From an uncultured Rhizobiaceae bacterium (GTDB taxonomy: Bacteria > Pseudomonadota > Alphaproteobacteria > Rhizobiales > Rhizobiaceae): a stretch of DNA of 64,000 bases. The stretch covers positions 3,472,001 to 3,536,000 of the forward strand of contig CATOTF010000002.1 of NCBI GenBank assembly GCA_951813045.1. The letters run 5' to 3'. Shown here one piece after another: positions 5,747 to 47,630 of this stretch. The notes below the pieces were generated by a model. The model was not told where the DNA came from and did no database searches. It worked only from the letters and a program-made list of their open reading frames with translations. Position 1 is the first letter of the stretch; every line of letters starts with the position of its first letter. Made by a program: the position numbers and the translations under genes.

Positions 5747-7435
5747 TTACCCTCCCCGGTGTTTGAAACTATCGCGGCGGAAAGAATAAAGAGCAGCCGG
5801 GTCGACCGCGATATCAACGACAGCAGGTGCGTTGCATTCGAGCGCTGCCTTAATCGCCTCACCAGCTTCTGCGTTTGTCTCTGCACGGAAACCTCTGGCA
5901 CCGTAAAGTTCGGCTAGCTTATCAAATCGCGGGCTCGAAACATCCGCTCCTATGTAACGCTTACCGAAAAAGTCCCGTTGATAGGCTTTTTCCGCGCCCC
6001 AGCATTTGTTATTCATCACAACGGTTACCGTCGATACATTATGATCAACTGCAGTGGATATCTCTGAGACAGTCATGCCAAATCCGCCATCACCCATGAA
6101 AGAAACCACAGGCCGTTCCGGCATCGCCAGCTTTACGCCCAACCCACAGGCGTAGGAGAAACCAACCAGCCCGAAATCCAGCGGTGTGAACAGACTTTTC
6201 GGTTGCCAATAGTTCATCGCATCGGTTGCCTGAAGGCAAAGCGTACCAGCATCCATCGTGATAGCCGCATCCTGCGGGAGAACATCACGCAGGGTTTTAA
6301 ACAGGCCTGACGGTTGGATCGGATTACCCGTCACGTCTGCATCCGCATCACGCTTTTCCAGAAAGGCCGATCGCTCCGACTGAAATCCAGCGACCCAGTC
6401 ATCGGCAGTTTTGCGGTTTTCTGTTCTCTGAAGCGTCGCTGTCAGCTGCTTGGCCGCTGTGGGCGCATCTGCCCAGATGCCCATCTCAACCGGGAAGTAC
6501 CGCCCGATAGCCGTTGGCTCCAGTTCCACATGGATAATCGCGGCATCACGGTTGATATTGTCATAAGTATAAAAGGTTGAGTTGAAACCAAGCCGTGTAC
6601 CCAGCGCCAGTATAACATCGGCTTCCTTGGCGAGGCGTGACGCAACCGGGTTACCTCGCGGGCCCATTTGTCCCGCATTCAATGGGTGGCCGAAGGGAAT
6701 GGCATCTCCATGGCCCGGAGATGTCACAATGGGGCAATTAAGCGCGGCAGCGAGCGCGAGCGCCTGCTCATGACCTTCGGTGTTTTTTATGCCTCCACCG
6801 GCAATAATTACCGGTTGCCTGGCGCTTGCCAATAATTTGGCAGCTTGTGTAATCTGATCGTCGTTTGCAGCTGGCATGGATTGCGAACGATAGGTTGAAG
6901 GAACTTGCATATCCTCAAATTCGGCGGTCGCGGATAGCACATCACGCGGCAGGTTCAACTGCACCGGCCCGCGACGCGGTGTCATGGCAACACGAAAGGC
7001 CTCGCGAAACATTTCCGGCACCCGGTCAGCACCAGTTGCCGTCCACGTCTTTTTAGTGATCGGGGTAAACAATGCCTGTTGATCGACTTCCTGAAAAGCG
7101 TCGCGATAGACATGGGAAGAAGACAATGAACCTGCAATCGAGACCACAGGCGAGAAAGCCGCTTTTGCCTGGCTCAACCCGGTTGCAAGATTGGTTGCTC
7201 CCGGCCCGTTTTGGCCAGCGACAATAACACCCGGCAAGCCTGATGCGCGGGCGTAGCCGTCCGCCATATGGGTACCGGTTCGTTCATCATGCACACCGAT
7301 AAAACCGATGTCTTTTGCGTCATATAACGCATCAAACATCTCCATGGTCGCCGAACCGATAAGCCCGAAAACATATTTGGTATCTTCCGCCTTCAACGCT
7401 TCAACAGCGGCTTGCCCACCGGACATTTTTTTCAT
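5747..7435 (-). CDS. Thiamine diphosphate-dependent enzyme, acetolactate synthase/Xsc-like
   Basis: The 562 residues follow the ThDP-enzyme plan. The N-terminal pyrimidine-binding domain has the catalytic Glu in VHDERTGTHMADGYAR, followed by GQNGPGATN and FQEVDQQALF. A central domain has AGGGIKNTEG. The C-terminal pyrophosphate-binding domain has MGDGGFGMTVSEI ending in NNKCWG. The FQEVxQ and WGAEK elements recall sulfoacetaldehyde acetyltransferase, but overall it is a general member of the acetolactate synthase superfamily. It probably makes or breaks a carbon-carbon bond on a 2-oxo acid or aldehyde intermediate of the operon. The substrate is not determined; biosynthetic acetolactate synthase is less likely in this context. 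Confidence 0.85.
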   Translation of the reverse strand: MKKMSGGQAAVEALKAEDTKYVFGLIGSATMEMFDALYDAKDIGFIGVHDERTGTHMADGYARASGLPGVIVAGQNGPGATNLATGLSQAKAAFSPVVSIAGSLSSSHVYRDAFQEVDQQALFTPITKKTWTATGADRVPEMFREAFRVAMTPRRGPVQLNLPRDVLSATAEFEDMQVPSTYRSQSMPAANDDQITQAAKLLASARQPVIIAGGGIKNTEGHEQALALAAALNCPIVTSPGHGDAIPFGHPLNAGQMGPRGNPVASRLAKEADVILALGTRLGFNSTFYTYDNINRDAAIIHVELEPTAIGRYFPVEMGIWADAPTAAKQLTATLQRTENRKTADDWVAGFQSERSAFLEKRDADADVTGNPIQPSGLFKTLRDVLPQDAAITMDAGTLCLQATDAMNYWQPKSLFTPLDFGLVGFSYACGLGVKLAMPERPVVSFMGDGGFGMTVSEISTAVDHNVSTVTVVMNNKCWGAEKAYQRDFFGKRYIGADVSSPRFDKLAELYGARGFRAETNAEAGEAIKAALECNAPAVVDIAVDPAALYSFRRDSFKHRGG

Positions 7436-7459
7436 GGAATTGACTTTCTTCGGTCGTGA

Positions 7460-8257
7460 TCAGGAATTGTGTTGATCGAGAAATTCGAGAATTGGTGCGG
7501 TAAAAAGATCTGGCCGTTCAACCAGCCCCATATGTTGGAGCGTTGGAACGATAATCGCCTTGGCGCCGGTAATCTCGGCGGCAATATCCCGGCTCATTTT
7601 GGGAGTGGAACCGCTATCGTTTTCGCACGTCATCACCAGTGTCGGGTGGATGATCGGCGGGTCGGGCTGGATAATCTCTTTAACGCCGTGGGCCAGCACC
7701 ATGCGACATTGCGCATAGATAGCCGGATCATTTGCCAAAACCCAGCCACGAATTTGATCGATGATATCTGCGTTATTTATGCGGAATTCTTCGGTGAACC
7801 AGCGTTCAATCGTCGCATCAAGTGTTGCGCCTGGACCTCCCGCGCTTGTGTCCGCTGCGCGTTGTTCAACTAGTTTCTGAGCCTCTTCACCCCGGTCATG
7901 GGGAGAGTTCAAGACAACAAGCGATGATACCCGGTCAGGGTAATCCATGGCGAAACGTCGGTTGATCATGCCGCCTAGCGAAAAGCCAATAATGGCGACG
8001 CGATCAATGTTCAGTTCGTCCAACAGATCGCGCAACTGTTGCGCAAACATGGTGACAGATGGTTTCTCGGGCAGGGCTGCGCTTTCGCCATGACCAAACA
8101 GATCATAATTTAACACGCGATAGTTTTGTTTTAGAGCCGGCAGATGCCCGGCCCAGGTCTCTCGTGTCAGCCCAAGCCCGTGGACTAGCGCAACAACGGG
8201 CCGACCCTCCGGCCCATGCAGCTCATAAACTGTACCATTTGCACTCGTTTGGCGCAT
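7460..8257 (-). CDS. Alpha/beta hydrolase
   Basis: This is a 265-residue single-domain hydrolase. It has the oxyanion HGLG motif near residue 26, an FGHGES-type loop, the nucleophile elbow GFSLGG near residue 95, and a late His in LQHMGLVERP that can complete the triad with an Asp in the CENDSG strand. It resembles enol-lactone hydrolases and carboxylesterases in layout. It sits between the ThDP enzyme and the DUF1185 protein, with only three bases to the latter, so it is translated as part of the operon. It probably hydrolyses an ester, lactone or amide intermediate. Substrate unknown. Confidence 0.85.
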   Translation of the reverse strand: MRQTSANGTVYELHGPEGRPVVALVHGLGLTRETWAGHLPALKQNYRVLNYDLFGHGESAALPEKPSVTMFAQQLRDLLDELNIDRVAIIGFSLGGMINRRFAMDYPDRVSSLVVLNSPHDRGEEAQKLVEQRAADTSAGGPGATLDATIERWFTEEFRINNADIIDQIRGWVLANDPAIYAQCRMVLAHGVKEIIQPDPPIIHPTLVMTCENDSGSTPKMSRDIAAEITGAKAIIVPTLQHMGLVERPDLFTAPILEFLDQHNS

Positions 8258-11434: not shown

Positions 11435-11953
11435 TTAGACGAGCCAGGGGCGGTATTGACCGTCCAAATAGGTGAGTGGCCGCTCTATACGGCCATCAAT
11501 ATGCTCCACCCTGCCGATCATTACCCGATGGCTGCCTGACGCATGATTTGTCTTAAGTTGGCAGTGGAAGGCGACAGCCCCCACGATAAAAGGACTGGCA
11601 GGATGATTATCCCCGTTATCATTGGTGTGATCAACATCGTCAAACCTGTCGATAAGGGTATCATCCTGACGCCCGGCAAAACGATCCGCAACCGCACTCA
11701 TTTCTTGCGGCAGGACATTTATGCAAAAGCATTTGTTGATTTTTACGCATTCCGCGATGCGGCTGCTGTCATGAAGACAAATCAACATGGAAGGAGGGTC
11801 GGCAGAAACTGAACAAAATGAACTCACGGTGGCACCATGTTTCCCAGCAGGACCATTGGTGGTGACAACTGCCACAGTCGTCGCGATCTGCCGCATTGCC
11901 GCGACAAACTCGTCACCCTTGAGGGATAGGTCATTTTCAACACGACATTGCAT
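11435..11953 (-). CDS. Flavin reductase family protein (FMN-binding split barrel)
   Basis: The 172-residue form begins at ATG 11953, which has a GGGGTGA Shine-Dalgarno; an upstream GTG at 12013 would add 20 residues without a good site. The sequence has the flavin-reductase pattern: FVAAMRQIATTVAVVTT, GATVSSFCSVSADPPSMLICL, FCINVL and the ending YLDGQYR. These enzymes reduce FMN with NAD(P)H and pass it to a monooxygenase. It is the first gene of the leftward operon and is the likely partner of the luciferase-like oxygenase. It is divergent from the LysR gene and probably controlled by it. Confidence 0.88.
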   Translation of the reverse strand: MQCRVENDLSLKGDEFVAAMRQIATTVAVVTTNGPAGKHGATVSSFCSVSADPPSMLICLHDSSRIAECVKINKCFCINVLPQEMSAVADRFAGRQDDTLIDRFDDVDHTNDNGDNHPASPFIVGAVAFHCQLKTNHASGSHRVMIGRVEHIDGRIERPLTYLDGQYRPWLV

Positions 11954-11996
11954 TGTATCACCCCACAGATTTGACGGCCTTTTAGTTAACCTGAAG

Positions 11997-12057
11997 GAAT
12001 TTGCATGAATCACTAAATGTTGTAAAACGAATAATATTGTAGATTAAATGCAAATTC
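11997..12057. promoter_or_regulatory. Candidate LysR operator: perfect 10-bp inverted repeat
   Basis: The arms GAATTTGCAT (11997-12006) and ATGCAAATTC (12048-12057) are exact reverse complements. Their starts are 51 bp apart, close to five helical turns. They lie in the 125-bp region between the divergent flavin-reductase operon and the lysR gene. LysR-type regulators bind as tetramers to two sites in such divergent regions. The link to this regulator is inference. Confidence 0.5.
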
Positions 12058-12078
12058 TTCTAATCAACAGAGGAAACC

Positions 12079-12918
12079 ATGAGCCTCGTTCTCATCAAGA
12101 CGTTCCTGTCTATCGTCGAAACCGGTTCACTGGTGAAAGCTTCGCGCACGCTCAACATCACCCAATCCACAGTGACATCCCGTTTGAAATCACTCGAAAT
12201 CGATGTTGGTCAAACGCTGATCTATCGCCAAAAGTCCGGCATTGTGCTCACATCAGCCGGCATCAAGTTTCACCGTTACGCCGAAGCGATGAACAATATG
12301 TGGCAGCAGGCCATGTTGGAAACATCCTTGCCTAAAGGCATGGAAGCGGTTTGCAATTTGGGCTGCGACCCTGACCTTTGGCCGCGGTTCGGCAGACAAT
12401 TGGCGCGCAAAGCCCACAGCGAGCATGCCACAACGGCGCTCACCGTCCATCACGCCGCCTCCGTCCAGTTGTGCGAATGGCTCACCACCGGCGTGATCGA
12501 TGCAGCCCTCACATACCGTCAAACTACCCTGCCCAATATGACGACCCTGGAACTCGAAGCTGAGGAACTGGTGCTTCATGCAACTCACCCTGACACCCCA
12601 GTGCGCGGAGACCCAAATTATGTTTATTTCGATGCCGGGCCCGAATTTGGTAGCCAGCATGCGTCAGAATATGCGGATGCCGGCATCGCCAATCACACCT
12701 TTGGCAGCGCCATCTGGGTCATGGATTACTTGAAGGATTGCGGCGGATCCGCCTATTTGCCGACCCATCTGGCGGCCTCTCATGTACGCGAAGGCAACCT
12801 GTTCATATTGGAAGAGGCCCCCACATTCACCCGTAAGGTATATCTTGTGACCAATGATACAGCACTTGAAAGCTGGCCGTGGCTTCCAGCAATTCTGAAA
12901 TCGCCCAATTTTCACTAA
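12079..12918 (+). CDS. LysR-family transcriptional regulator
   Basis: The 279-residue protein starts with the typical LysR helix-turn-helix (about residues 1-60): IKTFLSIVETGSLVKASRTL, then TQSTVTSRLKSLE. The C-terminal effector domain is somewhat short for the family (about 290-310 residues) and lacks a clear second periplasmic-fold half marker. The Shine-Dalgarno AGAGGAAACC precedes ATG 12079. It faces away from the catabolic operon, which is the usual arrangement for a LysR activator of the divergent genes. The inducer is probably a pathway intermediate and is unknown. It may also affect the transporter set beginning at 13190. Confidence 0.92.
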   Translation: MSLVLIKTFLSIVETGSLVKASRTLNITQSTVTSRLKSLEIDVGQTLIYRQKSGIVLTSAGIKFHRYAEAMNNMWQQAMLETSLPKGMEAVCNLGCDPDLWPRFGRQLARKAHSEHATTALTVHHAASVQLCEWLTTGVIDAALTYRQTTLPNMTTLELEAEELVLHATHPDTPVRGDPNYVYFDAGPEFGSQHASEYADAGIANHTFGSAIWVMDYLKDCGGSAYLPTHLAASHVREGNLFILEEAPTFTRKVYLVTNDTALESWPWLPAILKSPNFH

Positions 12919-13189
12919 TTCGACAAATTCGAATTTAATATTGGGTATGATTTGATTTTCTTCACTCAATTGCCGTGGCATGTTCACTTCGGGTAATTGC
13001 TTCATTTGGTCGGCCCACTGGACTGTTCATATATCACAATCTGGACTCGCAGTCGGCCACGCTACATGTTGAAATAAAGCCTGCCGCAGGACGCTAACTG
13101 CGCGATGGCACGGCCCTTTACCCGTGTTGAAAACCATCCGCCAATTCGTTTGGCAAACAAAACAAGCCAAAAGGCTTCGGGAGAAAATC

Positions 13190-14143
13190 ATGATGAAATT
13201 AACAAAATTTGCAGCCGCTGCTGCGATGACCACAGCGCTTACGCTGCCAGCAATTGCCGCAGATGTGGTCATTGGTGTTCCAAACTGGCCGTCTGTTCGT
13301 GTGACAGCCCATGTTCTTAAAACCGTGATGGAAGACAATCTCGGTGTCGATGTCGAATTGCAAAACGGCACCAACCCGGTGGTTTTTGAAGCCATGGACA
13401 CAGGCGCGATGCATGTGCATCCGGAAGTTTGGTTACCCAACCAGGCGAACCTTGAAGCCAAATATGTGAAAGACAAAGGTTCTGTACGTCAGAATCCAAA
13501 CGGCGTGAACGGTGACCAAGCCATGTGCGTCACCAAAGGCACCGCCGAGCGCACCGGCATCAAGGACCTTTCCGAACTGTCCAACCCGGATATGGCCAAG
13601 AACTTTGACACCGATGGTGATGGCAAAGGCGAAATCTGGATCGGTGCTGCCGGTTGGGCATCAACGAACGTGGAGAAAATCCGCGCCAAATCCTACGGTT
13701 ATGCGGAGACAATGAACCTCAAGGAAATCGACGAAACTCTGGCTCTTGCCGAAGTCGATAACGCTGTTGCCCAGAAAAAAGACATCGTCTTTTTCTGCTA
13801 CACGCCGCACCACATGTTTGCATTGCATGATCTGGTAATTCTCAAAGAGCCTGCATATGACGAAGCAAAATGGGTCGTGAAGCAACCAACCGATGATCCA
13901 CAATGGCTTGAAAATTCCAGCGCTCCGGTTGCCTGGAACACCGCGAAGTTGAAAATCCACTACGCTTCAAGCCTTGAGAAGGATAATCCAGCGGTTGCAA
14001 AGCTGCTGTCTCAGGTCAAACTGGATACCGACATCGTATCTAAAATGACATTTGCTCTTGTTGTTGAAAAACAGGACCCGGCGGAATTCGCCAAGAAATG
14101 GGTCGCCGAAAACGGCGCTACAGTCGACGCCTGGTTGAAGTAA
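13190..14143 (+). CDS. Betaine/proline-type ABC transporter substrate-binding protein
   Basis: The start at ATG 13190 follows GGGAGAAAATC and begins a clear signal peptide (MMKLTKF, an Ala-rich core, cleavage after ALTLPAIAA). The mature protein has the OpuAC/ProX-like pattern: VIGVPNWPSVRVTAH, HVHPEVWLPNQ and IGAAGWAS supply tryptophans of the kind that form an aromatic box around quaternary ammonium groups. The length of 317 fits. It delivers a compatible-solute-like ligand to the ATPase and permease that follow. Because the genes downstream encode ureohydrolase-like and ectoine-hydrolase-like enzymes, the ligand may not be glycine betaine itself. Substrate is inference. Confidence 0.85.
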   Translation: MMKLTKFAAAAAMTTALTLPAIAADVVIGVPNWPSVRVTAHVLKTVMEDNLGVDVELQNGTNPVVFEAMDTGAMHVHPEVWLPNQANLEAKYVKDKGSVRQNPNGVNGDQAMCVTKGTAERTGIKDLSELSNPDMAKNFDTDGDGKGEIWIGAAGWASTNVEKIRAKSYGYAETMNLKEIDETLALAEVDNAVAQKKDIVFFCYTPHHMFALHDLVILKEPAYDEAKWVVKQPTDDPQWLENSSAPVAWNTAKLKIHYASSLEKDNPAVAKLLSQVKLDTDIVSKMTFALVVEKQDPAEFAKKWVAENGATVDAWLK

Positions 14144-14157
14144 TCAAGCCAATTGAG

Positions 14158-14185
14158 CAGGCGGTGCGATTTATTGCGCCGCCTG
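14158..14185 (+). terminator. Hairpin between binding-protein and ATPase genes
   Basis: CAGGCGGTGC pairs with GCGCCGCCTG with one G-U pair and an AT-rich loop, starting 14 bases after the binding-protein stop. It is followed only by TTTCACC, so it may act as a partial terminator or an mRNA-stabilising structure that raises the binding protein over the membrane components. Confidence 0.55.
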
Positions 14186-14226
14186 TTTCACCTCTACGAA
14201 TACGCTAAATTGTATCGGGGAACATT

Positions 14227-15276
14227 GTGTCGCAAGACGTGATTGCGCTGGAAGGCGTTTGGAAGATATTCGGCTCGCGAGCAGATGAAGCCATGAAGGC
14301 CGTTAAGGAACGCGGATTAACCAAGCCGGAAGTTCTGCAGGAATTTGGTTGCGTCGTCGGTATTGCCGATTGCTCGTTTTCAATCCCCCGCGGTGAAATC
14401 TTCTGCGTTATGGGCCTCTCCGGTTCGGGCAAGTCCACCATGGTGCGCCACCTCAACCGGTTGATAGAACCAACTGCCGGTTCCATCTCGATGCTGGGCA
14501 AAGATGTTCTTTCCCTGAACGATAAAGAACTGCGCGAAATGCGCGCACGCCATATCGGCATGGTTTTTCAACACATGGCGTTACTCCCGCATCGCACGGT
14601 TCGCGACAATGTGGGCTTTCCCCTACAGGTTCGAGGCGAACCGAAATCCACCCGTTGGGAAGTCTCCCAGCGCTGCCTCTCAATGGTAAATCTCGACGGC
14701 TATGAAGACCGTTTCCCCCGTGAGCTTTCCGGTGGCATGCAACAAAGGGTTGGCCTCGCCCGCGCACTGGCATCCGACCCCGAAATTCTTCTCATGGATG
14801 AACCGTTCTCCGCCCTTGACCCGTTGATCCGACGGCAGCTGCAAGACCAGTTCATGGGGCTCTCCGCAGAACTCAATAAGACAACGGTATTCATCACGCA
14901 CGACCTCGACGAGGCAATTCGCATCGGCGACCGTATTGCCATCATGAAGGACGGCTTGATCGTACAGATTGGGACGCCCGAAGAAATCGTCACCAATCCT
15001 GCGGACGATTATGTCCGGGATTTCGTTGAGGGTATATCCAAACTCAAACTGGTGTTCGCCCGTTCCATTATGGTCCCGATCAAGAAATACAAAAAGGCAC
15101 AAGGGGATGACCTCAAAGTAAGTCCCCGCACCCATGAAGGAACGGACCTCGATCAGTTAATCGATATCGCGACAACAACCGATCAGCCGATCGTCATTCA
15201 AAACGATGAAGGCAAGGACGTGGGTGTGGTCAGCAAATCAGTCCTGCTAAAAGGTATTCAGGGAGGTAAGGCATGA
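14227..15276 (+). CDS. Betaine/proline-type ABC transporter ATPase with C-terminal CBS-like region
   Basis: The 349 residues hold a complete ABC ATPase: Walker A GLSGSGKST, Q-loop MVFQHMALLPH, signature LSGGMQQR, Walker B ILLMDEPFSALD and switch ITHDLDEA. An N-terminal piece precedes the Walker A region (KIFGSRADEAMKAV), as in ProV-like proteins, and the tail after residue 270 resembles a short CBS-type regulatory region. The start codon is GTG 14227. The stop overlaps the permease start by four bases (ATGA). It energises uptake of the ligand caught by the preceding binding protein. Confidence 0.92.
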   Translation: MSQDVIALEGVWKIFGSRADEAMKAVKERGLTKPEVLQEFGCVVGIADCSFSIPRGEIFCVMGLSGSGKSTMVRHLNRLIEPTAGSISMLGKDVLSLNDKELREMRARHIGMVFQHMALLPHRTVRDNVGFPLQVRGEPKSTRWEVSQRCLSMVNLDGYEDRFPRELSGGMQQRVGLARALASDPEILLMDEPFSALDPLIRRQLQDQFMGLSAELNKTTVFITHDLDEAIRIGDRIAIMKDGLIVQIGTPEEIVTNPADDYVRDFVEGISKLKLVFARSIMVPIKKYKKAQGDDLKVSPRTHEGTDLDQLIDIATTTDQPIVIQNDEGKDVGVVSKSVLLKGIQGGKA

Positions 15277-36759: not shown

Positions 36760-38072
36760 TGGCGACTATCTGCTGTCACCAACCAGGCTAAACGGGGCCC
36801 AATAGGCCGGGTGTAATTCACGCGGGGTTGAGTTCGGATTGTCGAGAACCTCGAAAATTGCGAGGCGCTGAGCTTCCCCTTTATCAAGGTCAGGATTGTT
36901 ACGGCGTTGCGCAAACAGGCCGGTGGTCAAACGCGTCGCAGCGTCCGAGTACACAGGCCAATGTGACACGAGAATGCTGCGAGCACCGGCATGAAAGAAT
37001 GCGCTGGCAAGTCCCGAAAGACCTTCCTGACCCGCCTGATCCGGTGCTGCCGTATTACAGGCGGACAACAGCACGAAGTCCGCATTTAACCGTAAGGTGC
37101 TGATTTCAGCAGAAGAGAGTAACCCGTCGTCTTCTTCGCTGGCTGTTGGTGGGGGCGTAAAAACCAACCCGGCATGGTTTTGACCCAACTCCCCGGCAAT
37201 CAAACCGTGTGTCGCAAATGACAGAATATCAAAATCTGCCAGACGGCCATCCTCGCTCAAACTCTTGATCGCAGTTTCTGTCGCATCCCCGTGTAGCAAG
37301 AGCAGGTTTTCGCCTCCTGCGGCTTCGGCACCGGCCTGCAATTCGCACCGTGTGTCCGGCAATTCCTGCAAATCCAGAAGGGCGTTGCTGTTTGCAGTTC
37401 CCGATCGTGTATCAACTGCGGAACTGGCAAGGTTTTGTGCAATTAGAAGCGGTTTTTGTTGGGGAAGTGAACAATCGTGCGGTAGCGCGCCATTCCGCTG
37501 TTTGCCGATCAACGGATCACCCACCCCAAAGAAACTGCGCTTCGTTATCTTTTTGCTTTTTTTTCGCTGACGGAAGGCGTGAAACCCAGCCACGCTGGGT
37601 ACGATGGTAATTGATTTAGATCGTATCAGCCATGGAGCGTTTTCAAGAGTGGTGTTTTCATCTGGTGGGCTGGTGATCATCAGATGAAACGGCATGGAAA
37701 CAAGTGACTTGTCAGGAACAATAATGAGGCGCTTGCGGTCGCTCAATTCTTTTTCATAAGGCTTCATCAGCAGCTGATATGCCTCATAAGCTAATTCGAA
37801 GTCGAAAGACTTTTGTGATGCGCCTTGTTCGGGTTGGTCCTCGTCTAACGACATTACGCCACGCGTGGCTAAACTTGCGGAGCCACATGCGGGATCTGTG
37901 AGAGCTGCCTGACACCGCAGCCTGCGGGCGATGTTCTCCAGCTCGGCACGGTTTCGTGTGCTTGTATATGATTGATTGCGTGTACCGTCCGCATCGCGCG
38001 AGAGTGTGAATATCAAGCTGGGGTTGATAAACTCTGGACTTGTCCCGTATTAATTCCGCATCCTGTTCTCGT

Positions 38073-38930
38073 TTAACTCGTTTTTCGTTCAAATTTGATG
38101 GGCGACATTCCTCCTATTGCTGAGTGTCTTCTGCGGCTGTTGTAAAAGCCGTTGATGTATTGGAACAGGGCGTCGGTTGCTTGCTGTCGTGTTTGCCATG
38201 TGCCGCGCCAGATGAGTTCGGCTTTGAGTGTTTTGAAGAACGTCTCGACCACGGCGTTGTCCCAGCAATTGCCTTTTCGGCTCATGGACACTTTAAACTT
38301 CAGTTCACGCATTCGTTTTTGATAATCATGAGAGCAGTATTGACTGCCACGGTCCGTATGATGAATGCAGCCCGGCGGTGGGTTTCGAAGGGCCAAAGCC
38401 CGGTTGAGAGCCTGCAATGCCAAGTCTTTCTTCAACCGGTTGCTGACAGCCCAACCCACCACACGGCGTGAATGTAGATCGATCATCACTGCCAGATACA
38501 GCCAGCCCTCACGGGTCCAGATGTAGCTGATGTCACCTGCCCATTTCTGGTTGGGTTTATCCGCTTGGAAGTTCCGCCCCAGCAAGTTAGGCGCAATGTT
38601 GAAGCGGTGATTGCTATCGGTCGTAGCTTTGTATTTGCGTGTTCTGACCACTCGAATGCCGTTGTCGCGCATCAGGCGGCCAACACGGCGGTGACCAATA
38701 GCAAGGCCGGCTTCCTTCAACTCCTGCGTCATTCTCGGGCGACCATAACTGCCAAGGCTCAAGTGATGCTGTTCACGGATGTGCGCCAGAACCACCATGT
38801 CATCGCGCTGCCGTTGACTAACAGGGCGGTTGTGCCAGGCACGATAACCACGCGATGTAACATTCAGAATATGGCAAAGCCGATCCACCGGAACGTGTTT
38901 CCTGTGTTCTTCGACAAACGCAAATCTCAC
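38073..38930 (-). CDS. IS3-family transposase OrfB (DDE integrase core)
   Basis: The 285-residue protein has an N-terminal DNA-binding part (SYGRPRMTQELKEAGL) and an integrase core. The catalytic triad is Asp133 in GDISYIW, Asp193 in HTDRGSQY and Glu229 in AVVETFFK; 35 residues lie between the second Asp and Glu, as expected for IS3 elements. It starts at GTG inside the end of orfA, and a frameshift fusion with OrfA is the usual way the active transposase is made. All key residues are present, so it is probably functional. Confidence 0.95.
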   Translation of the reverse strand: MRFAFVEEHRKHVPVDRLCHILNVTSRGYRAWHNRPVSQRQRDDMVVLAHIREQHHLSLGSYGRPRMTQELKEAGLAIGHRRVGRLMRDNGIRVVRTRKYKATTDSNHRFNIAPNLLGRNFQADKPNQKWAGDISYIWTREGWLYLAVMIDLHSRRVVGWAVSNRLKKDLALQALNRALALRNPPPGCIHHTDRGSQYCSHDYQKRMRELKFKVSMSRKGNCWDNAVVETFFKTLKAELIWRGTWQTRQQATDALFQYINGFYNSRRRHSAIGGMSPIKFERKTS

Positions 38931-39202
38931 TTGCTTTGACCCGCGAAGAACACTGTTGCCTTCTTTAATATCTCCCTCTCCTCCGTGAGGAGACGAACCT
39001 CTCTGCGAAGCCGCTCATTCTCTTTGGCCAGATCAATATCAACCGATGGTGGAAGGTCATCAGGCCGGGATTGTTGTATCCATTTCGATAACGTCGAAAA
39101 GCCGACCCCCAAATCTGATGCCACTTGTTTCCGGGTAAGTCCGCTGGTCAGCGCAATACGCACCGCTTCACGCTTGAATTCGTCTGTGTGGCCTCGTGCC
39201 AT
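38927..39202 (-). CDS. IS3-family OrfA (helix-turn-helix, leucine zipper)
   Basis: The 91-residue OrfA starts MARGHTDEFKREAVRIAL and carries a helix-turn-helix in RKQVASDLGVGFSTLSKW. The C-terminal half (KENERLRREVRLLTEEREIL) is a leucine-zipper-like coiled coil for multimerisation. It binds the element ends and, fused with OrfB by frameshifting, gives the transposase. It overlaps OrfB by four bases. Confidence 0.95.
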   Translation of the reverse strand: MARGHTDEFKREAVRIALTSGLTRKQVASDLGVGFSTLSKWIQQSRPDDLPPSVDIDLAKENERLRREVRLLTEEREILKKATVFFAGQSK

Positions 39203-41609
39203 AATAGTTCTCCTTGATGGGATTAATCCAATTCAAGGACACGGAACTAAACCGTGACAAGTCCACTCTGTAGCAAACTGAGGAACGGTTATCATGACAA
39301 TGAGAGCTTCATCAGCCTCCAAATGATTGATAGCAGTCGTCATGCTCACTGGTTGTTGATGCGTGAAGCTGTCGGGCGACTGAGGTGTGGTACGATGCAA
39401 TTCGCGTAACTGTGTTTGGAGACTTCGAACTTTACGTTGAGCGGTGGTAACGTCAATTTTGTTAGCAAGACCATTCAATAATTCTTCGCGCGCCCGTTGA
39501 AGCGCTAATTCTGCGTCCTGAACAGCGCGCGTCCCGGCAGCGGAGTTGGAGGATGTCACATTTCGGTTCTGAGCACGCGATAGTGCTTTACTGACCGAAA
39601 GTGAGGTGGTGTTTTGGGCTACTTCGAAGGCCTCATCTACAAGCGAGTTTTGCTGGTTGCCGGGAAGTGTTGCCGCAACTCGAATTGCTGATAACGCGTG
39701 GGAAGCAAATAAGGTGGACGTTTCACCGGTTTCCGTCGAAATTCCAGGCGAAAGTGCGGTCTTGCTGGCCTTGCGGAAATGGGTCAACGCCGTCGAAAAA
39801 TCGTTTTCCAGCAGGCCGATTTGAGCCGCGAATATTTCTAAAATGATATTAATTCTACCATTTTTTGGTACAAGTTGCTTCAGATTTGCCAGTTCAATTT
39901 TTGCCAGTTCTGGTTTTTGGGTTCGAATTGCGTCAGCCAACTTGGCCGACGTCTTGGCAAAGCGGACCATGAACCGATCACTATTGTTTTCACCGCGAGC
40001 ACTACTCCGTTCTTGGGTAGTTTCGGTTTCGTCTGATTTAGCTATCGACCTTTGCGAATTGGTGTCACGGTTGACATCCCGTAAAATTTTTGTGGCTTCA
40101 AGTTCAGCAAATACAGGGTCATCAGGAGGTAAGATGCGCTTTGCTAATTGCATCGCGCGATTTAACGCCTCGTCCTCGCCGACATCGTCACCAGTCTGGC
40201 CTGCGATATCGGAAAGGCGGTTAAAATATGTGATGGATGCGCGCGTGGGACCATCCGGTTTTTCCTTATCGGTATCCAAGAGTCGCTCATAAAGCAGTTT
40301 CGCTTGATCAAACTTACCTGTGTTAGTGAGAGTATCCGCCCATGCATTAAGAATATTTTCGACAATCTGGCTGCCTCGCTCACCTGTCGCATCGGGCGTT
40401 AACAATGCCCGGGAAAATAACTTCTCCGCGAGTTCATACTGTCCAATGAGTGTTGTCTCCAGCCCCAGTTGCAGCAGTAGATTTCCAGCACCATTTTCGT
40501 TGTCGTTAATAAGCGCTAGAGCATGTTGACGCATAATTTCTGCATTCAGAGTATCACCGGAGCGGTTCATAATGGCTGCAAGATTAATTGCTGCGAGACC
40601 AACATTATAGCCTACACCATCGTGTTGCAGTTTGAGCAATGTGTAAGCTCGCTCGCTGTAGTTTCTTGCTGCCCCGGATACGTCATGATTGGAGGTATTA
40701 AGTTCTAATTGATATTGTGACCAGGAGGCGTAAACGCCTCCTGGATGGATTGGCATAATGGCAAAAAACAACGGTAACTCTCGGTCAAGCTTACCAAGCC
40801 AGACCCCAGCTTGCTGGACATCTTGTTTGAAATAGGCCCCCCAGGCTGCATAAGAGGCGATGTCAGCCATGAACGGAAGTTCAGGAGACATAAGTTCATA
40901 GATAGCTTTTGCTGCATCAATAACCTTAGTCGCCTCATCCGGGTTGCTTGCCATGAAAGCGGAAAATTGGCGAATGTTGCCGTAAGCAGCCAAAACCGGA
41001 GCAATCGCTTCTCGGAATTTATCCTGTTGTCGCCTTGCCTCGGCGAGTTTTTCGCGAAACATTGACGACTCCTGATCCATTCCATTGAGCAGACTGATCT
41101 TCAGACGTTCCCATCGAGCGAACAGTTGGCGATCATTACCCCGTAGGTTGAGCTCGCTTTGAAAAATTGGAAGAGCAGGTTGAAGTGCTTCTTCCACGCT
41201 GCCAAGCCGAACCAGTGCTTCCGCTTCCAGCAAGGCCGTTCGAAATTGATAGTCGGTTAAGGGTGCATTTAGATAAAACCCGTGCCCTATGCGCATGCGC
41301 TTGCCGAGCCGCGCAGCCAATTTTACATCGTGTTCCAACAATAGATCTAATACATCATTTATCCGCGTTGAGATGCTCACAATGCTTGCATTTGGATTGG
41401 CGCGTTCTTTGGCAAGCGCTCTTAATACGGGTGCCAGATGTTCGACCGATTTTCCATAAAGCCCATTGTAAAACGGGGCGTCCTCATCGTGAAGTTTCTG
41501 GGCTAATACTGTCGTTGAATATAAAAGAACCACCGTCACAAAAAACGTAACCAGCGCTTTGCGCCCGGCGTAGATGGCTGCCCAAACCGACTTCATATTA
41601 CTCTTCCCA

Positions 41610-43358
41610 TTAGTTCGATAACATCCGTCCCATGGCAGAGCCCACATTGGGGTATTTTTCCTGATCGAGTTTCAACTCGCCGAAGAGGTCTTCCAGTTCT
41701 TTACGTGTGTTGAGGCTGCGGGATCGAATATGGGCCATTAGCGGTAAAAAAACATCAGTATCGCAGGTGTCTGGTTTATAAATCCAAAAGTCACCAATGT
41801 TCTCACCTTTGCTATCCGCTGTCGTCCTTTCCAAACCGCAGCGATTTTCGGGGGCCGCGTTTTGCCAAAACAGCGAGGCCAAATCGAGCAAAGCTGACGT
41901 TTCTTTGGCGAAATAACCGTGGGCCAACATGTCCCCTCCGAGGCTGGACATGTCGATACTATCCATCGCCCCACTCACAACGGTTCCAATGCCGCCCTGT
42001 CCGGCGCGTTTAGAATCCCCATGAATCTTCTGGGAGACTTTCAAGGCCCAGTCATTGTTGGAAGCGTAAAGCGTGAGGCGTCGTGCCAACGGGCTTATTG
42101 TTTTGACCATCTCAACGAACAGATCAGCATCCACATCGGGTGCCGCAAAAATTACCTGGTCAAGCGGCGGTTGTTGCAGGTTGGATAATGACCTGCGGGC
42201 TGCAATGAGTTCCAAAGCATCTGTCATCGCACGGTTACCCATTGAATGGGCCACGAGATGAATGGTCTTTGCACCCGATTTTTGAACAACGTCTTCGAGA
42301 AACCCGGCGAGCCTTCTGCCACTGAGGCGTACAACTGCCGTGTCCGCCACGTATTCCAATACAGAATGTCTCGAAGGCCAAGAGTAGGCTATTGGCAGAC
42401 CGTCAAATTGCATGTCGTGGGCGAGTTGCGCGGCGCGCTTGACAGCCTTTTCGAAACTGACATTAAAGCCATGGATGAAAACAAAGGCTTCTTTGCTGAC
42501 CTTGGTTTTAAGATCAGACCGCATTTGCGCAAAATAGTCATTTTCCCCTTCGGGAGTGACTGATGTTAAAATCACATGTTTATTACTGGATTCGGAGAAT
42601 TCCAATCTCCAGATTGACGGGGATTCTACAGCGCCGGACTTGTGGTTCTCTGGAATTGTGACGACGGCTGTTCCCAGCTCAAGTTTGCCGCGCCTGCTGC
42701 CATAAATTTCCGAAGGCTTTGATGAATTCTCTCTTGCCCTGTCTGTAGCGTAGTAGATTTTTACGGATTTGTAGCCATCTTCATTACCGCGCGTTGCAGA
42801 ATTGCTGCCGGAAGGTTCTTGCAGAAGGAGGTTAAGAGAATCCAGGTATCTCCCTTGCGCAGCCACATTGTTACGTTTTCTCGCAATCTCCAAAAGCGCT
42901 TGAACCAATTCGATACGCCGTGATTTGGCGAGATTATTTTCCGTTGCAAGTTTTAGTGCGGTTTCAAGTGTGCGTTGTGCCTCCCGCAGATTGCCAGCGG
43001 TCTGATAGGCGGCAGATGCTTCTTGCAATAACGGAATGGGATCTGTTGAAAGTTCATCGCGATTGGACTGCGCAAATGATGCCATATCAACCAGGATACG
43101 CGCCTGTAATTCGTGTTGAGATGTGCGTTTTGCCAATTCCTTTTGGAAGTCCAGCAAGGAATAGATACTTTGAATGTCGCGCGGATTTTCGCCTGCAAGT
43201 TCCTTCACCTTGTGACCGGCAAGCGCGATGGCCTCCACCGGGTTGGTTTCAGCTCTGGCTTTAATTGTGCTGGCAAAAGACGGGTCAACCCCTTCTGCAG
43301 CAGCTGGAAGAGCCCAAGGTAGAAACAGGATTATTATTGTTAAGAGAGAGCGTAACAA
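41610..43358 (-). CDS. Exported alpha/beta hydrolase (DUF900 type) with helical N-terminal region
   Basis: The TTG start at 43358 follows GGTGAGATACT and begins a signal peptide (LLTIIILFLPWALPAAA). Residues 25-180 are helical repeat-like. A DUF900-type alpha/beta hydrolase follows: IYYATDRARE near 201, AFVFIHGFNVSFEKA at 291-305, PIAYSWPS and the nucleophile elbow HLVAHSMGNRAM with Ser372. Such enzymes are esterases or lipases of poorly known substrates. The stop is 13 bases before the CHAT gene start, so the two were one operon. The start is 78 bases from the divergent metacaspase gene. It is intact. Confidence 0.88.
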   Translation of the reverse strand: MLRSLLTIIILFLPWALPAAAEGVDPSFASTIKARAETNPVEAIALAGHKVKELAGENPRDIQSIYSLLDFQKELAKRTSQHELQARILVDMASFAQSNRDELSTDPIPLLQEASAAYQTAGNLREAQRTLETALKLATENNLAKSRRIELVQALLEIARKRNNVAAQGRYLDSLNLLLQEPSGSNSATRGNEDGYKSVKIYYATDRARENSSKPSEIYGSRRGKLELGTAVVTIPENHKSGAVESPSIWRLEFSESSNKHVILTSVTPEGENDYFAQMRSDLKTKVSKEAFVFIHGFNVSFEKAVKRAAQLAHDMQFDGLPIAYSWPSRHSVLEYVADTAVVRLSGRRLAGFLEDVVQKSGAKTIHLVAHSMGNRAMTDALELIAARRSLSNLQQPPLDQVIFAAPDVDADLFVEMVKTISPLARRLTLYASNNDWALKVSQKIHGDSKRAGQGGIGTVVSGAMDSIDMSSLGGDMLAHGYFAKETSALLDLASLFWQNAAPENRCGLERTTADSKGENIGDFWIYKPDTCDTDVFLPLMAHIRSRSLNTRKELEDLFGELKLDQEKYPNVGSAMGRMLSN

Positions 43359-43436: not shown

Positions 43437-45704
43437 ATGTTCAATAGTCTTTTTAGGGTTTGTTTAGGGATGGATTGTTTGGGAACAACTCAGCTGTACT
43501 TGTTTTTCTATATCAGGCCGATTGCACGTATCGCTACGGTTTGCGTCATATTTTTGGGCGTTGTCACATCTGCTATGGCGGAAACACGGGCATTGTTAGT
43601 TGGTGTTTCAGACTATGATAATACAATCGGATTGGCTGACTTGCGTGGCCCTGCAAACGATGTCCGGCTCTTGCGAAAAGTATTAAATGCACGCGGTGTA
43701 AAAGACATACGTGTGTTGGCTGACGGGGTAGACGGTGCAAACAGACCGACCCGCGATGCTATCATGAAGGCGCTCAAAAAGCTGACTTTGGATTCAGATG
43801 AAGGTGATTTATCGATCATCCATTTCAGTGGACATGGCACACGACAACTTGATGGCAGCGGCGATGAACAGGACGGGTTTGACGAGGTATTTCTGCCCTC
43901 CGATGTGGCCAGGGCGCCCGCTGATACGGGGCTTATTCCCAATGCTATTTTAGATGAGGAAATCGGTGCGGCGGTTCGTGAACTGCGTTCCAATGGAGTA
44001 GATGTTTGGACCATAATGGATTTTTGTCATGCGGGGACTGGCCTGCGCAGTGGCGGCACAAACAGCGCTTCACGTTACGTGGACCCAGCCGTACTGGTGG
44101 ACGAAATTAAGCCAGCCAGTGCTTCTGGAAATAAGCAACGATGGTTTTCAAATATTGTTTCCGATGACCAGCTGAAGGGTGGCCTTGTGGCCTTCTACGC
44201 AGCGCAGGCGCACGAGGTTGCTCGCGAAGTAAATTTCACCACAGGTGATGAAAACCAAGGTGAAAACGAAAACGGCTGGTACGGGTTGTTTACATCGAAA
44301 ATTGCTAACCGGTTGCATGCATCACCCGGAATTACCTATCGACAGTTATTTCAGTCCGTCCTGGCGGATATGAATGACACGTCTGTCCCGGGTGGCGCGA
44401 GGCTACAGACACCATCTCGAGAGGGTAACCTGTTTGAGGCAACTGTCCTGGGCGGTGCCAGAACGGCAGGTGTTCGACAGTACCCCGTCAGTTTTGATGA
44501 ATTGCAAGCGGGCAAGGTTCATGGCCTCACAAAGGGGACGGTGGTAGAACTCTTTAGCGATGCTGCTGCTGGGCAAGAGGATGGTTTGGGGTTCGCGCAG
44601 GTGGAAGAGGCCCGCACATTACTCTCCTTTTTACGTCCGGTAGATGACAGCTGCCGCATAGATGGGGATGCGTTATGCGCTTCCTCTGGCGAGATAGCCC
44701 AGGACACGCGGTTTGCCCGGATTGTTCTTCGCCCAAATAGTTTTGGCCTATCATTATCAGCGGTAATTAACCTGAAAACCGGCGCAAAGGCAGATGAACA
44801 AGAACCAGCCGTTGCTGCTTTGACCAGAACAATTGGTAAATTAAAGGTTGAAAACGGGCTGGATATTCAATTGAGTGAAGATGCCTATACGGTAGAGGTG
44901 GCCGTCGCTGACGGCAAGCTTTGGTTTGGCCACAACGTTATTCAGGGTGGCGTACCGGTGGGGCTTGCCTGGGATTCATCCGAGCCAGAAGCGGATGCGC
45001 AACTTGCATCACTTTTGCTTCGAATGCTGGATGCCGAACGCATTGCGGCCACTATGGATACGATTGCCGAAAGTGGGTCTCCGCTTTCACCGAGCCCGGT
45101 TGATGTTACTGTGGAGACAAAGTCCAGCGATGCAGCATTGCTTGAAAAGGTTTCAGGTAGACTTTCCCCAGTACGGGAATGCCGCCGAATTCAACGCCGG
45201 GAAGCTTATAGTGCTGCCTCACCATTGGCGAAGCAAAGCCTGTTGAAACAGTGCGATGTGGTTCAACCGACCGCACAGGCCAGCGAACAAGGTCAGTTCG
45301 ACATCAACACCATTCATATCGACTCCCAATTCTGCGCCCGTGCAATCCATACACGCATAGACGGGGCAAATGCAGCTACGTTACTGGGCTCCCCAATGAT
45401 CATCTGTTCTGATTGTCCAGGTGGTCTCTCCACCGGGAATGAGCGGTTATATGTGCTTAAAACCAAAGCGGTTGAAAATGCGGATCAAGTCAACCTTTCG
45501 CAGGTATTGAGCACGTGCGATACAGGGTCGCGCACGCGAAGCGCACAGGGTAACGCTTTGCAGCAGCTTATTCGAACAGTTGGACGAAAGCATGGAACGC
45601 GTGGCGCATTCGGTGGCATGGCACCGGGAGATGTTTGGGTCACCCGGTTTGAGTGGAATGTTTTACCACGCGACCAGGGTTTGAGGTTGGCAGTCGGTCA
45701 ATAG
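43437..45704 (+). CDS. Exported metacaspase-like protein (peptidase C14 family)
   Basis: The 755 residues have an N-terminal hydrophobic segment (ATVCVIFLGVVTSAMA) and a caspase fold at about 50-330. The catalytic pair is His133 in HFSGHGTRQ and Cys197 in MDFCHAGTG, with the start ALLVGVSDY typical of metacaspases. Metacaspases cleave after Arg or Lys and often need calcium. The remaining 400 residues are a separate domain that I do not recognise. Either ATG 43437 or ATG 43470 could be the start. The trypsin-like gene follows on the same strand after 23 bases, so both are likely in one transcript. The calcium requirement and specificity are family inference. Confidence 0.88.
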   Translation: MFNSLFRVCLGMDCLGTTQLYLFFYIRPIARIATVCVIFLGVVTSAMAETRALLVGVSDYDNTIGLADLRGPANDVRLLRKVLNARGVKDIRVLADGVDGANRPTRDAIMKALKKLTLDSDEGDLSIIHFSGHGTRQLDGSGDEQDGFDEVFLPSDVARAPADTGLIPNAILDEEIGAAVRELRSNGVDVWTIMDFCHAGTGLRSGGTNSASRYVDPAVLVDEIKPASASGNKQRWFSNIVSDDQLKGGLVAFYAAQAHEVAREVNFTTGDENQGENENGWYGLFTSKIANRLHASPGITYRQLFQSVLADMNDTSVPGGARLQTPSREGNLFEATVLGGARTAGVRQYPVSFDELQAGKVHGLTKGTVVELFSDAAAGQEDGLGFAQVEEARTLLSFLRPVDDSCRIDGDALCASSGEIAQDTRFARIVLRPNSFGLSLSAVINLKTGAKADEQEPAVAALTRTIGKLKVENGLDIQLSEDAYTVEVAVADGKLWFGHNVIQGGVPVGLAWDSSEPEADAQLASLLLRMLDAERIAATMDTIAESGSPLSPSPVDVTVETKSSDAALLEKVSGRLSPVRECRRIQRREAYSAASPLAKQSLLKQCDVVQPTAQASEQGQFDINTIHIDSQFCARAIHTRIDGANAATLLGSPMIICSDCPGGLSTGNERLYVLKTKAVENADQVNLSQVLSTCDTGSRTRSAQGNALQQLIRTVGRKHGTRGAFGGMAPGDVWVTRFEWNVLPRDQGLRLAVGQ

Positions 45705-45727
45705 GGATAAGGGAGCGAAAAATCAGA

Positions 45728-46810
45728 ATGAAGTATCGAGAACGGATAATTATGATGAAAAAACTGGGATTAGCATTTCTGCTGAGTAATCTTGCCGCCG
45801 CGACAATACCTGCTTATGCGCAGGATCTGAAAGATATTGTTGTTACATCGCCAGCCGGCAGCCGTGACTATATGGAGCGTGTTGTTGAATGGCGTAAAGA
45901 CGCCGAGATCGTGGATTTCGATGAAGTGGGTGATACGCGCATTTACGGCGGGCGCCCGGCACAGGAAGGCGCCTGGCCCGCACAAGTGAGTCTGATGATG
46001 GTGGCGGCACTCAACCAAGACCCCAAAAGCCGCATACGGGCCCACTTCTGCGGTGGCTCCATCATATCGCGAAGCTGGATTCTAACCGCAGCACATTGCG
46101 TTGTGGATAAGAACAACCGGCCAAAGCCAGTTGAAGCTATCGCTGTTCATAGCGGGTCTGTGGCATTGGAACGCGGTGACCTCAGAGCGATCGAGAAAAT
46201 CATCGTTCACGAAAATTATATGCCGTTCGACAATGATATTGCCCTGCTAAAACTCCAACGCCCAATCTCCGATTCGTCTGGACCGGTTGGTGCCATGTCA
46301 GTAATTGCTCAAGGTGCTGCGATTCCGCAAGGTGGCGCTGTCGTCATCGGGTGGGGCATGACCCGTCGTGCATCGGTGGCGGAAAGCCTGTTGGAAACCA
46401 ACATCGATATTCAGCAGAACGCCACGTGCAATAAGGGTATGACAAATGCTGCGCGCCGTGATCTTGGTTCCGTTTTACAGCGGATCGGCTGGGCGTCAAA
46501 AATTCCACAAAATAAGCTTGAAGATGCCTATAAATATCTCACCGAAGCCATGGGGGATCCCCTCACCAACAACATGATCTGCGCTGGTACGCCGACCGGC
46601 GAACGCGATTCCTGTCACGGCGACAGTGGCGGGCCTTTAATGGTGAAACAGACCAACGGAAAATGGTTGCAGATCGGACTTGTTTCCTGGGGTGCCAAAC
46701 CGCTGACAGGTGAAGTGCAAACGCCTTGTGGTAAAAAGAACCTTTATGCAGTTTATACAAGGCTTTCAAACTATTTTGATTGGATTGGCAAACAACTTAA
46801 GGAAAATTAA
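45728..46810 (+). CDS. Trypsin-like serine protease zymogen (S1 family), exported
   Basis: The 360 residues have a signal peptide (MKKLGLAFLLSNLAAA...AYAQ) and a propeptide of about 39 residues. It ends in FDEVGDTR with the classic activation junction Arg71-IYGG, so the protein is made as a zymogen. The triad is His123 in TAAHCV, Asp170 in DNDIALLKL and Ser300 in GDSGGP, and Asp294 six residues before the Ser gives a trypsin-like (Arg/Lys) pocket. The cysteines CGGS/AAHC and others form disulfides typical of exported S1 proteases. It follows the metacaspase gene and is adjacent to the rhodanese gene (one base apart). ATG 45752 is an alternative start. Confidence 0.93.
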   Translation: MKYRERIIMMKKLGLAFLLSNLAAATIPAYAQDLKDIVVTSPAGSRDYMERVVEWRKDAEIVDFDEVGDTRIYGGRPAQEGAWPAQVSLMMVAALNQDPKSRIRAHFCGGSIISRSWILTAAHCVVDKNNRPKPVEAIAVHSGSVALERGDLRAIEKIIVHENYMPFDNDIALLKLQRPISDSSGPVGAMSVIAQGAAIPQGGAVVIGWGMTRRASVAESLLETNIDIQQNATCNKGMTNAARRDLGSVLQRIGWASKIPQNKLEDAYKYLTEAMGDPLTNNMICAGTPTGERDSCHGDSGGPLMVKQTNGKWLQIGLVSWGAKPLTGEVQTPCGKKNLYAVYTRLSNYFDWIGKQLKEN

Positions 46811-46811
46811 G

Positions 46812-47630
46812 ATGCCCTTTTTCAAAAAGAGATTGATCATTTTATTTGCAACAATGGGGTTGGCGATTTCCCCAACTGCCTTTGCCAAGGACAATTTTTC
46901 TGACGGTAGTTTTGGAGATGATAACGCCGGCGGGAAACCGACTAAGCCTTCAAGTGATGTGGTAGATAATCTGGATGGCAGTTTTGATGAAAAAGAACCC
47001 GGCCAGATTCCAGCACAAAACCCGACAGAAACAACCAAACCTGACGATGGTTTTATCGAAGGTGGCTCTTTTGTTGAAAATGAAGATACGCCGATAGTCG
47101 TTAAACCGAAGCCGATAAAAAAAGTTGAACCAGAACCTGTTAAGCCTGTTAAGCCCGCCAAACCTCACGACCCGATCTTGGCCTATGAGATGCGTGATTT
47201 TGGTGTTCGTCCAGTTAAGGTATTACGACGACAACAAATGCATGCTCCCACACCAACAGCGATTCCCTCTGGACGTTTGATCAGCACCGCACAATTGTTT
47301 CAGGCCTATAAGTCTAATCAGCAGATGGTTGTAATTGATGTGTTAGGCGGTAGTTACACCTTGCCGGGATCCCATGTGGAGCAAAGGGTCGCTTATGGCG
47401 GCAACTACAATGACCGCATTCAGCAACAAACGGCTGCATGGCTGCACCAACTTTCCGACGGCAATAGAAGTGTGGCGATCGTCATGTTCTGCAGCGACCC
47501 AATGTGCTGGCTGAGTTATAATGCTTCGCTGCGTGCCATCAATGCTGGGTTTAAAAATGTGTTTTGGTATCGTGGCGGTAAGACAGCCTGGCAAATGGCG
47601 GGCCATCAAATGGTGCCAACTGGATTCTAA
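46812..47630 (+). CDS. Exported rhodanese-like protein with CxxxxCW motif and acidic repeats
   Basis: ATG 46812 follows AAGGAAAATTAAG and starts a signal peptide (LIILFATMGLAISPTAFA). Residues 30-95 contain three degenerate acidic repeats with a GSF core (DGSFGDD, DGSFDEK, GGSFVEN). A lysine-proline-rich linker follows at about 98-118. The C-terminal rhodanese-like domain (about 155-272) has MVVIDVLGG and FCSDPMCWLSYNASLRA, with Cys227 and Cys232. This CxxxxCW form resembles PQQ-associated CXXCW rhodanese proteins. It is the third gene of the rightward exported set. Its role is unknown; sulfur transfer or disulfide work in the periplasm is possible. Confidence 0.75.
   Translation: MPFFKKRLIILFATMGLAISPTAFAKDNFSDGSFGDDNAGGKPTKPSSDVVDNLDGSFDEKEPGQIPAQNPTETTKPDDGFIEGGSFVENEDTPIVVKPKPIKKVEPEPVKPVKPAKPHDPILAYEMRDFGVRPVKVLRRQQMHAPTPTAIPSGRLISTAQLFQAYKSNQQMVVIDVLGGSYTLPGSHVEQRVAYGGNYNDRIQQQTAAWLHQLSDGNRSVAIVMFCSDPMCWLSYNASLRAINAGFKNVFWYRGGKTAWQMAGHQMVPTGF

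Follow-up and report, generated by a model that had tools for sequence, protein, structure and literature searches.

Which protease switches on an apparently exported serine-protease zymogen whose gene directly follows that of a metacaspase? The question is raised by two neighboring genes in a 64,000-nucleotide stretch of DNA (the window) from an uncultured Rhizobiaceae bacterium (GCA_951813045.1, contig CATOTF010000002.1, positions 3,472,001 to 3,536,000), whose genome comprises 4.84 Mb in two contigs and holds a single C14 caspase. Trypsin-fold zymogens require a cut that frees an Ile or Val N-terminus, and residue 189 largely determines the specificity of the mature enzyme. In most relatives of the window pair, residue 189 does not suit the basic residue kept at the activation site, a mismatch that makes it reasonably probable that the two genes encode an exported protease-activation pair in which the metacaspase would act on the zymogen; the cut, its order, and its place we infer from sequence comparison.

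The metacaspase and its zymogen neighbor

The two genes are separated by an intergenic gap of 23 bp and carry the following features (pLDDT, predicted local distance difference test).

43437-45704, + strand: exported metacaspase, 755 amino acids from the first ATG (Pfam match, Foldseek, signal peptide by eye), laid out as a likely signal peptide (residues 1-48), a caspase domain (residues 51-327), and a long C-terminal region without Pfam match
43659-43661, + strand: Asp75, predicted S1-pocket acid in the motif GPxND, aligned with LxGCxND of Yca1/MC4 (invariant in 16/16)
43833-43835, + strand: catalytic His133 in the motif HFSGHGT (invariant in 16/16)
44019-44027, + strand: Asp195 (pocket) and catalytic Cys197 in the motif DFC (both invariant in 16/16)
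45728-46810, + strand: S1A serine-protease zymogen, 360 amino acids (Pfam match, residues, AlphaFold model with pLDDT 71.9)
45818-45940, + strand: propeptide, about residues 31-71, ending at Arg71 (45938-45940, invariant in 14/14) with Ile72 next
46094-46096, + strand: catalytic His123
46235-46237, + strand: catalytic Asp170
46607-46609, + strand: Asp294, at the position of Asp189
46625-46627, + strand: catalytic Ser300

Residues 51-327 of the metacaspase score 67.6 bits on the Pfam Peptidase_C14 profile, whose cut-off is 21.4 (E 1.6e-18), with His133 inside HFSGHGT and Cys197 inside DFCHAG, and the intact His/Cys dyad described in the initial annotation was found at those coordinates and residues. 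The best PDB matches of the AlphaFold2 model (mean pLDDT 72.4) in a Foldseek search were plant and yeast metacaspases and Geobacter GSU0716 (3bij). In an alignment with solved metacaspases, Asp75, Ser131, His133, Asp195, and Cys197 fall on the dyad and pocket motifs. As regards a p10 domain, which metacaspases have and orthocaspases lack, the Pfam match ends at residue 327 and the Foldseek alignments span about 300 columns. Asp75 and Asp195, which we take to line the S1 pocket as in the solved structures, are aligned and invariant and would give an acidic pocket for Arg or Lys. Cleavage by orthocaspases and other prokaryotic caspase homologues falls after positively charged residues (PMC6426788), and the only orthocaspase with biochemistry by 2017 self-processed and required no further activation (PMC5756287).

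The zymogen covers the whole Trypsin profile (PF00089, residues 72-353, E 5.3e-47) and contains the triad His123/Asp170/Ser300, a GDSGGP motif, Asp299 (equivalent to Asp194), and Asp294 (equivalent to Asp189). Its activation junction reads GDTR71/I72YGG and is preceded by a propeptide and a signal peptide, all as first described. Judged by eye from the N-termini, the signal peptides would be cut at PAYA/Q in the zymogen and SAMA48/E49 in the metacaspase, and both proteins look exported. There are exactly six Cys residues in the zymogen (108, 124, 234, 285, 296, and 334), as many as three classic disulfides would need. The trypsin-like pocket assigned on the strength of Asp294 calls for two corrections: the specificity positions 189/216/226 are Asp, Gly, and Ala (Asp, Gly, and Gly in trypsin), the Ala being Ala341, which, to judge from trypsin mutants, may alter the pocket, and Asp is atypical of the nearest relatives of this protease, most of which have Thr. 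The window zymogen lies at the base of its clade in the protease tree (type A, below). In the protease model, a helical insertion (window 46418-46546, residues 231-273) also separates two second-barrel strands, and relatives in the alignment share it.

Pocket and activation site across relatives

The comparison was made on 54 complete zymogens, no two of them identical in sequence, that have a caspase within 4 kb; L087, L114, and L136, where the zymogen runs off the end of a contig or locus, and the incomplete L097 and second L081 copy are not among them. Residue 189 is Asp in 10 of these proteins, Thr in 39, Gly in four, and Val in one, and the P1 residue at the activation site is Arg in 38 and Lys in 16. 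All 44 zymogens without Asp189 thus have Arg or Lys at P1 (44/44). Lacking Asp189, these 44 should not cut after Arg or Lys themselves, and with a site that is still basic, most paired zymogens should be unable to self-activate. An acid at 226 substituting for Asp189 was considered and rejected, as positions 189, 190, and 226 are non-acidic in all 44. In each of these 44 pairs the metacaspase retains its His/Cys dyad and the two pocket Asp residues; among the other ten, the dyad is absent or not evident in those of L077 and L249.

The controls were zymogens, obtained in the class and phylum searches, for which no caspase came up in the examined stretch. Without Asp189, Arg or Lys stands at the site in 0 of 11, the residues being Tyr, Phe, Met, Ala, or Ser/Ile, whereas with Asp189 the site is Arg or Lys in 12 of 17, the rest being three Cys (lipoprotein-like), one Tyr (L247), and one unclear. 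Ten of the 11 non-Asp189 controls come from genomes without any PF00656 match, and in the remaining one (L196, genome G388) the match lies about 680 kb away on the same contig. Without a caspase nearby, therefore, the site mostly appears to follow the protease's own pocket, and beside a metacaspase it is basic whatever the pocket. A protease search made without regard to caspases led to L238 and L240, which show Thr189, an Arg site, and an adjacent metacaspase; two later same-genus cases show Gly189 and an Arg site, with a metacaspase 3.5 kb away (L263) or a metacaspase C-terminus on the same contig (L264).

Failed or odd automatic site calls were read by eye. L192 (9517) and L245 (6366) were read in this way as Arg with Asp189, L251 has Ser or Ile at the site according to the register chosen, and L236, L237, and L239 were left out of the control because the junction is not recognizable. 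The raw automatic comparison (44/44 against 0/12, with L237) gives a Fisher p of 1.8e-12, which ignores shared descent. After a PF00656 check of 22 control genomes, L232 (G559) was removed from the Asp189 control and was not added to the 54; at this locus, which lies outside the class (G559:C6, about 11936-14303), a protease with Asp189 and an Arg site and a PF00656 caspase are encoded on the same strand with their domains about 1 kb apart. L196 also encodes another protease without Asp at this position (7363-8142), with Ala before VVGG; it is absent from the model's matches and was not counted.

The layout of the pair also recurs. The metacaspase lies upstream on the same strand in 45 of the 54 pairs, the two are fused in frame in five, encoded on opposite strands in three, and in one the metacaspase is on the same strand but downstream; in the 45 upstream cases, the distance from the metacaspase stop codon to the Ile/Val16 codon is 159-276 bp in 44 and 907 bp in one. 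Accidental neighbors are excluded by this recurring layout, and a chance motif by the domain E-values. In a family sample of 151 genomes, metacaspase matches occur in 34 (E <= 1e-5), 20 of them strong (best E < 1e-29), and protease matches in 23 (E <= 1e-10), 18 of them strong (E < 1e-50). All 18 strong-protease genomes fall within the 20 strong-metacaspase genomes (hypergeometric 2e-21, uncorrected for descent), G021 and G066 being the only two with a strong metacaspase and no strong protease. In 13 of the 18, at most 25 kb separates the two genes; they are farther apart in G007 and G062 and on separate contigs in G030, G055, and G112. Within the genus, the metacaspase is present in three of 15 genomes, the same three that have a close protease (E < 1e-40). 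Absence of the pair from other genomes had been named as what would refute the original proposal, and it is instead conserved, in the 54 pairs and in the co-occurrence across the family. In a scan of named genomes (76 loci kept, of 554 relatives), a complete partner lies within 4 kb in 41 of the 76 loci.

Four of the 289 genomes in a class sample have trypsin and caspase fused in one open reading frame (ORF) with an intact caspase dyad (L188-L191), and L077 is a trypsin-caspase fusion with Gln replacing the catalytic His. Directly upstream of three of the four fusions lies a caspase-like protein without the dyad, with GAG for GHG and no Cys (L188 7571-9067, L189 8309-9826, and L190 5589-7082).

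Locus contexts and neighboring genes

Three contexts were distinguished among the 76 loci: type A (the window type), type B (Rhizobiaceae and relatives), and type C (Rhodobacteraceae). In type A, the metacaspase is accompanied, more or less completely, by protease, rhodanese-like, DUF900, and CHAT genes; 14 of its 23 loci have a complete partner within 4 kb, two a partial one (L087 and L097), and two reach a contig edge (L099 and L109). Type B consists of a metacaspase and two small conserved genes, with WD40-caspase, CapA-like, MORN, and V8-like protease genes in some loci (a conserved set, seen in L114, L128, L137, L140, L152, and L154), and its zymogen lies about 10 kb onward in L114, the sole named locus extending that far. 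Type C has two metacaspases about 6 kb apart, the protease usually adjoining one of them; L126, the only type C locus annotated with Pfam in this way, also encodes a patatin-like lipase, a histidine kinase, a response regulator, and a DegP-like protease. Two loci carry additional S1A copies: L105 (16307-19899) has three consecutive zymogens 7-9 kb from a metacaspase, with Asp, Ser, and Ser at 189 and Arg, Arg, and Lys at the site, and L081 (7369-8577) has a second copy with the catalytic His changed to Arg beside a normal copy with Ser189.

The neighbors of the pair in the window are as follows.

46812-47630, + strand: exported rhodanese-like/CXXCW protein, 272 amino acids, the next codirectional gene (PF00581 E 1.4e-5; TIGR03865 below cut-off)
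41610-43358, - strand: exported alpha/beta hydrolase (DUF900), divergent, recurring in the window-type cluster (PF05990 E 8.4e-46)
39233-41647, - strand: N-terminal TPR part of an interrupted exported TPR-CHAT protein
36766-38016, - strand: C-terminal CHAT protease part of the TPR-CHAT gene, separated by an IS3 element (PF12770 E 3.4e-44)

The interrupting element (about 38036-39264) belongs to the IS3 family and has two ORFs, with inverted ends that match imperfectly and perhaps a 5-bp duplication (ACTCT). In the relative L032, TPR and CHAT form a single ORF of 1250 amino acids, and a second CHAT protein is encoded elsewhere in the window genome. The interruption suggests either that CHAT is dispensable for whatever still works here or that the cluster is decaying. 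A PADLOC scan of five window proteins gave no full-length defense match and only partial ones (caspase model positions 5-158 of 453; LmuA, Avs1b, and others weaker).

Possible routes of activation

If the metacaspase activates its neighbor, it would be active, or become active, in the periplasm and would cut the zymogen after the conserved Arg or Lys (Arg71 in the window), and the freed Ile/Val N-terminus would pair with Asp194 and turn the serine protease on. The initial annotation had proposed this cut; conservation of the pair and the mismatch between pocket and site favor its direction, and the cleavage itself we infer. The trypsin-like pocket with Asp294 is the weak point of that proposal, as the residue would equally permit self-activation and Asp is absent in most paired relatives.

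Several observations weigh against activation by the metacaspase. The window zymogen keeps Asp294, so that in the window genome alone both routes appear possible. Among the 44 non-Asp189 pairs, 40 come from one metacaspase-led scan, in which a caspase in the locus is given, and nine of the 11 non-Asp189 controls belong to one genus. Read by eye on the protease tree, independent losses of Asp189 number about three to five on the caspase side and three on the other, and the odds for a four-to-three split are about 1 in 35. L247, with Asp189 and Tyr, breaks the own-pocket rule for lone zymogens, and L081 has Ser189 and an Arg site with no caspase in the 18 kb examined and metacaspases elsewhere in the genome. 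The caspase model missed the caspase beside L232, so further misses are possible where control genomes have caspases. Lastly, five of the 23 type A loci (L083, L093, L095, L096, and L103) have no protease in the examined stretch, and window-type metacaspases of this kind probably have other uses too.

The alternative that survives best, though we consider it unlikely, is that the window zymogen is a trypsin that cuts its own Arg71 by means of Asp294, the metacaspase having some other target. Asp294 is indeed present, lone zymogens mostly match their own pocket (Asp189 with Arg or Lys as counted above; small residues with Tyr, Phe, or Met in nine of 11), and the fused proteases keep Asp189, as do those of type B except L081. 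Self-activation would, however, leave the 44 partners without Asp189 unexplained, including most of the window's closest clade, and Ala341 at position 226 may weaken a trypsin pocket. An activator of another kind, such as the CHAT protein or another periplasmic or outside protease with Arg/Lys specificity, is improbable: a CHAT match is present in 18 of the 23 window-type loci, and CHAT proteases can act in cascades, but the window CHAT gene is disrupted by IS3, most paired type C loci have no CHAT match in the examined stretch, and protease searches blind to caspases still arrive at metacaspases. Just as improbable is parallel action of the two enzymes on common envelope targets under shared regulation with no cut between them, with which the several exported hydrolases of the clusters and the metacaspases without a nearby protease agree, but which leaves unexplained why a basic site and loss of Asp189 meet beside metacaspases and not in controls. 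The reverse order, in which the metacaspase would owe its processing and activation to the serine protease, is very improbable: an orthocaspase does need its p20 domain cleaved from the rest, but that orthocaspase self-processed (PMC5756287), some metacaspases have no such protease nearby, and a strong protease without a strong metacaspase occurs in none of the 151 genomes.

Activation of the zymogen by the metacaspase has parallels among known systems. Vertebrate trypsin activates chymotrypsinogen and proelastase, which are likewise non-trypsin zymogens with a basic site that need an Arg/Lys-specific protease in trans; the activator proposed here differs in being a caspase-fold cysteine protease in a bacterium. 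Like type I/II metacaspases (Yca1 4f6o, AtMC4 6w8s, and MCA2 4af8), the window protein has a p20 domain with the dyad and pocket Asp, but it is bacterial, appears exported, and has its long unmatched C-terminal region. The alphaproteobacterial pseudo-orthocaspases of Klemencic and colleagues join trypsin-like and caspase modules, with a QC dyad, an N-terminal trypsin-like domain, and a C-terminal DUF4384 (PMC6426788); L077 is such a fusion, recognized by Gln for His only, whereas the window pair consists of two proteins with an intact caspase dyad, and zymogen logic is not met in the available part of their description. The caspase-nuclease and trypsin-nuclease pairs of canu similarly have a protease that switches on a dormant partner by a cut (PMC12799240), but the partners there are antiphage nucleases, and here the partner is itself a protease, a zymogen that seems to carry an export signal. 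Proteolysis domains were reported in 23 of 217 metacaspase operons, one variant in four Rhizobium strains combining protease and protease-inhibition functions (PMC3501461); the word trypsin is absent from the main text of that paper, and its figures and supplementary tables, which stand apart from this, may include such pairs. Trypsin-caspase fusions are thus already published, and the adjacent exported pair with its mismatch of pocket and site was not found in the open-license literature, supplementary tables aside.

The nearby hydrolases and CHAT proteases, together with the patatin-like lipase, DegP-like protease, and two-component system of L126, weakly suggest an envelope-stress or self-destruct role for the cluster. 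There is about an even chance that the family represents an alphaproteobacterial exported zymogen cascade, started by a metacaspase, in which a chymotrypsin-fold protease gave up self-activation and which would serve envelope surveillance or controlled lysis.

Bacterial metacaspases have, to our knowledge, few known natural substrates, and the comparison supplies a candidate, specified to the bond, across a conserved family. If the activation is real, it would mean a zymogen cascade set off by a caspase-fold protease beyond the cytoplasm, the bacterial equivalent of a digestive or clotting cascade. The specificity switch, in which Asp189 is lost and the basic site is kept, seen in this sample with genomic metacaspases and not in controls, could reveal other activator-zymogen pairs.

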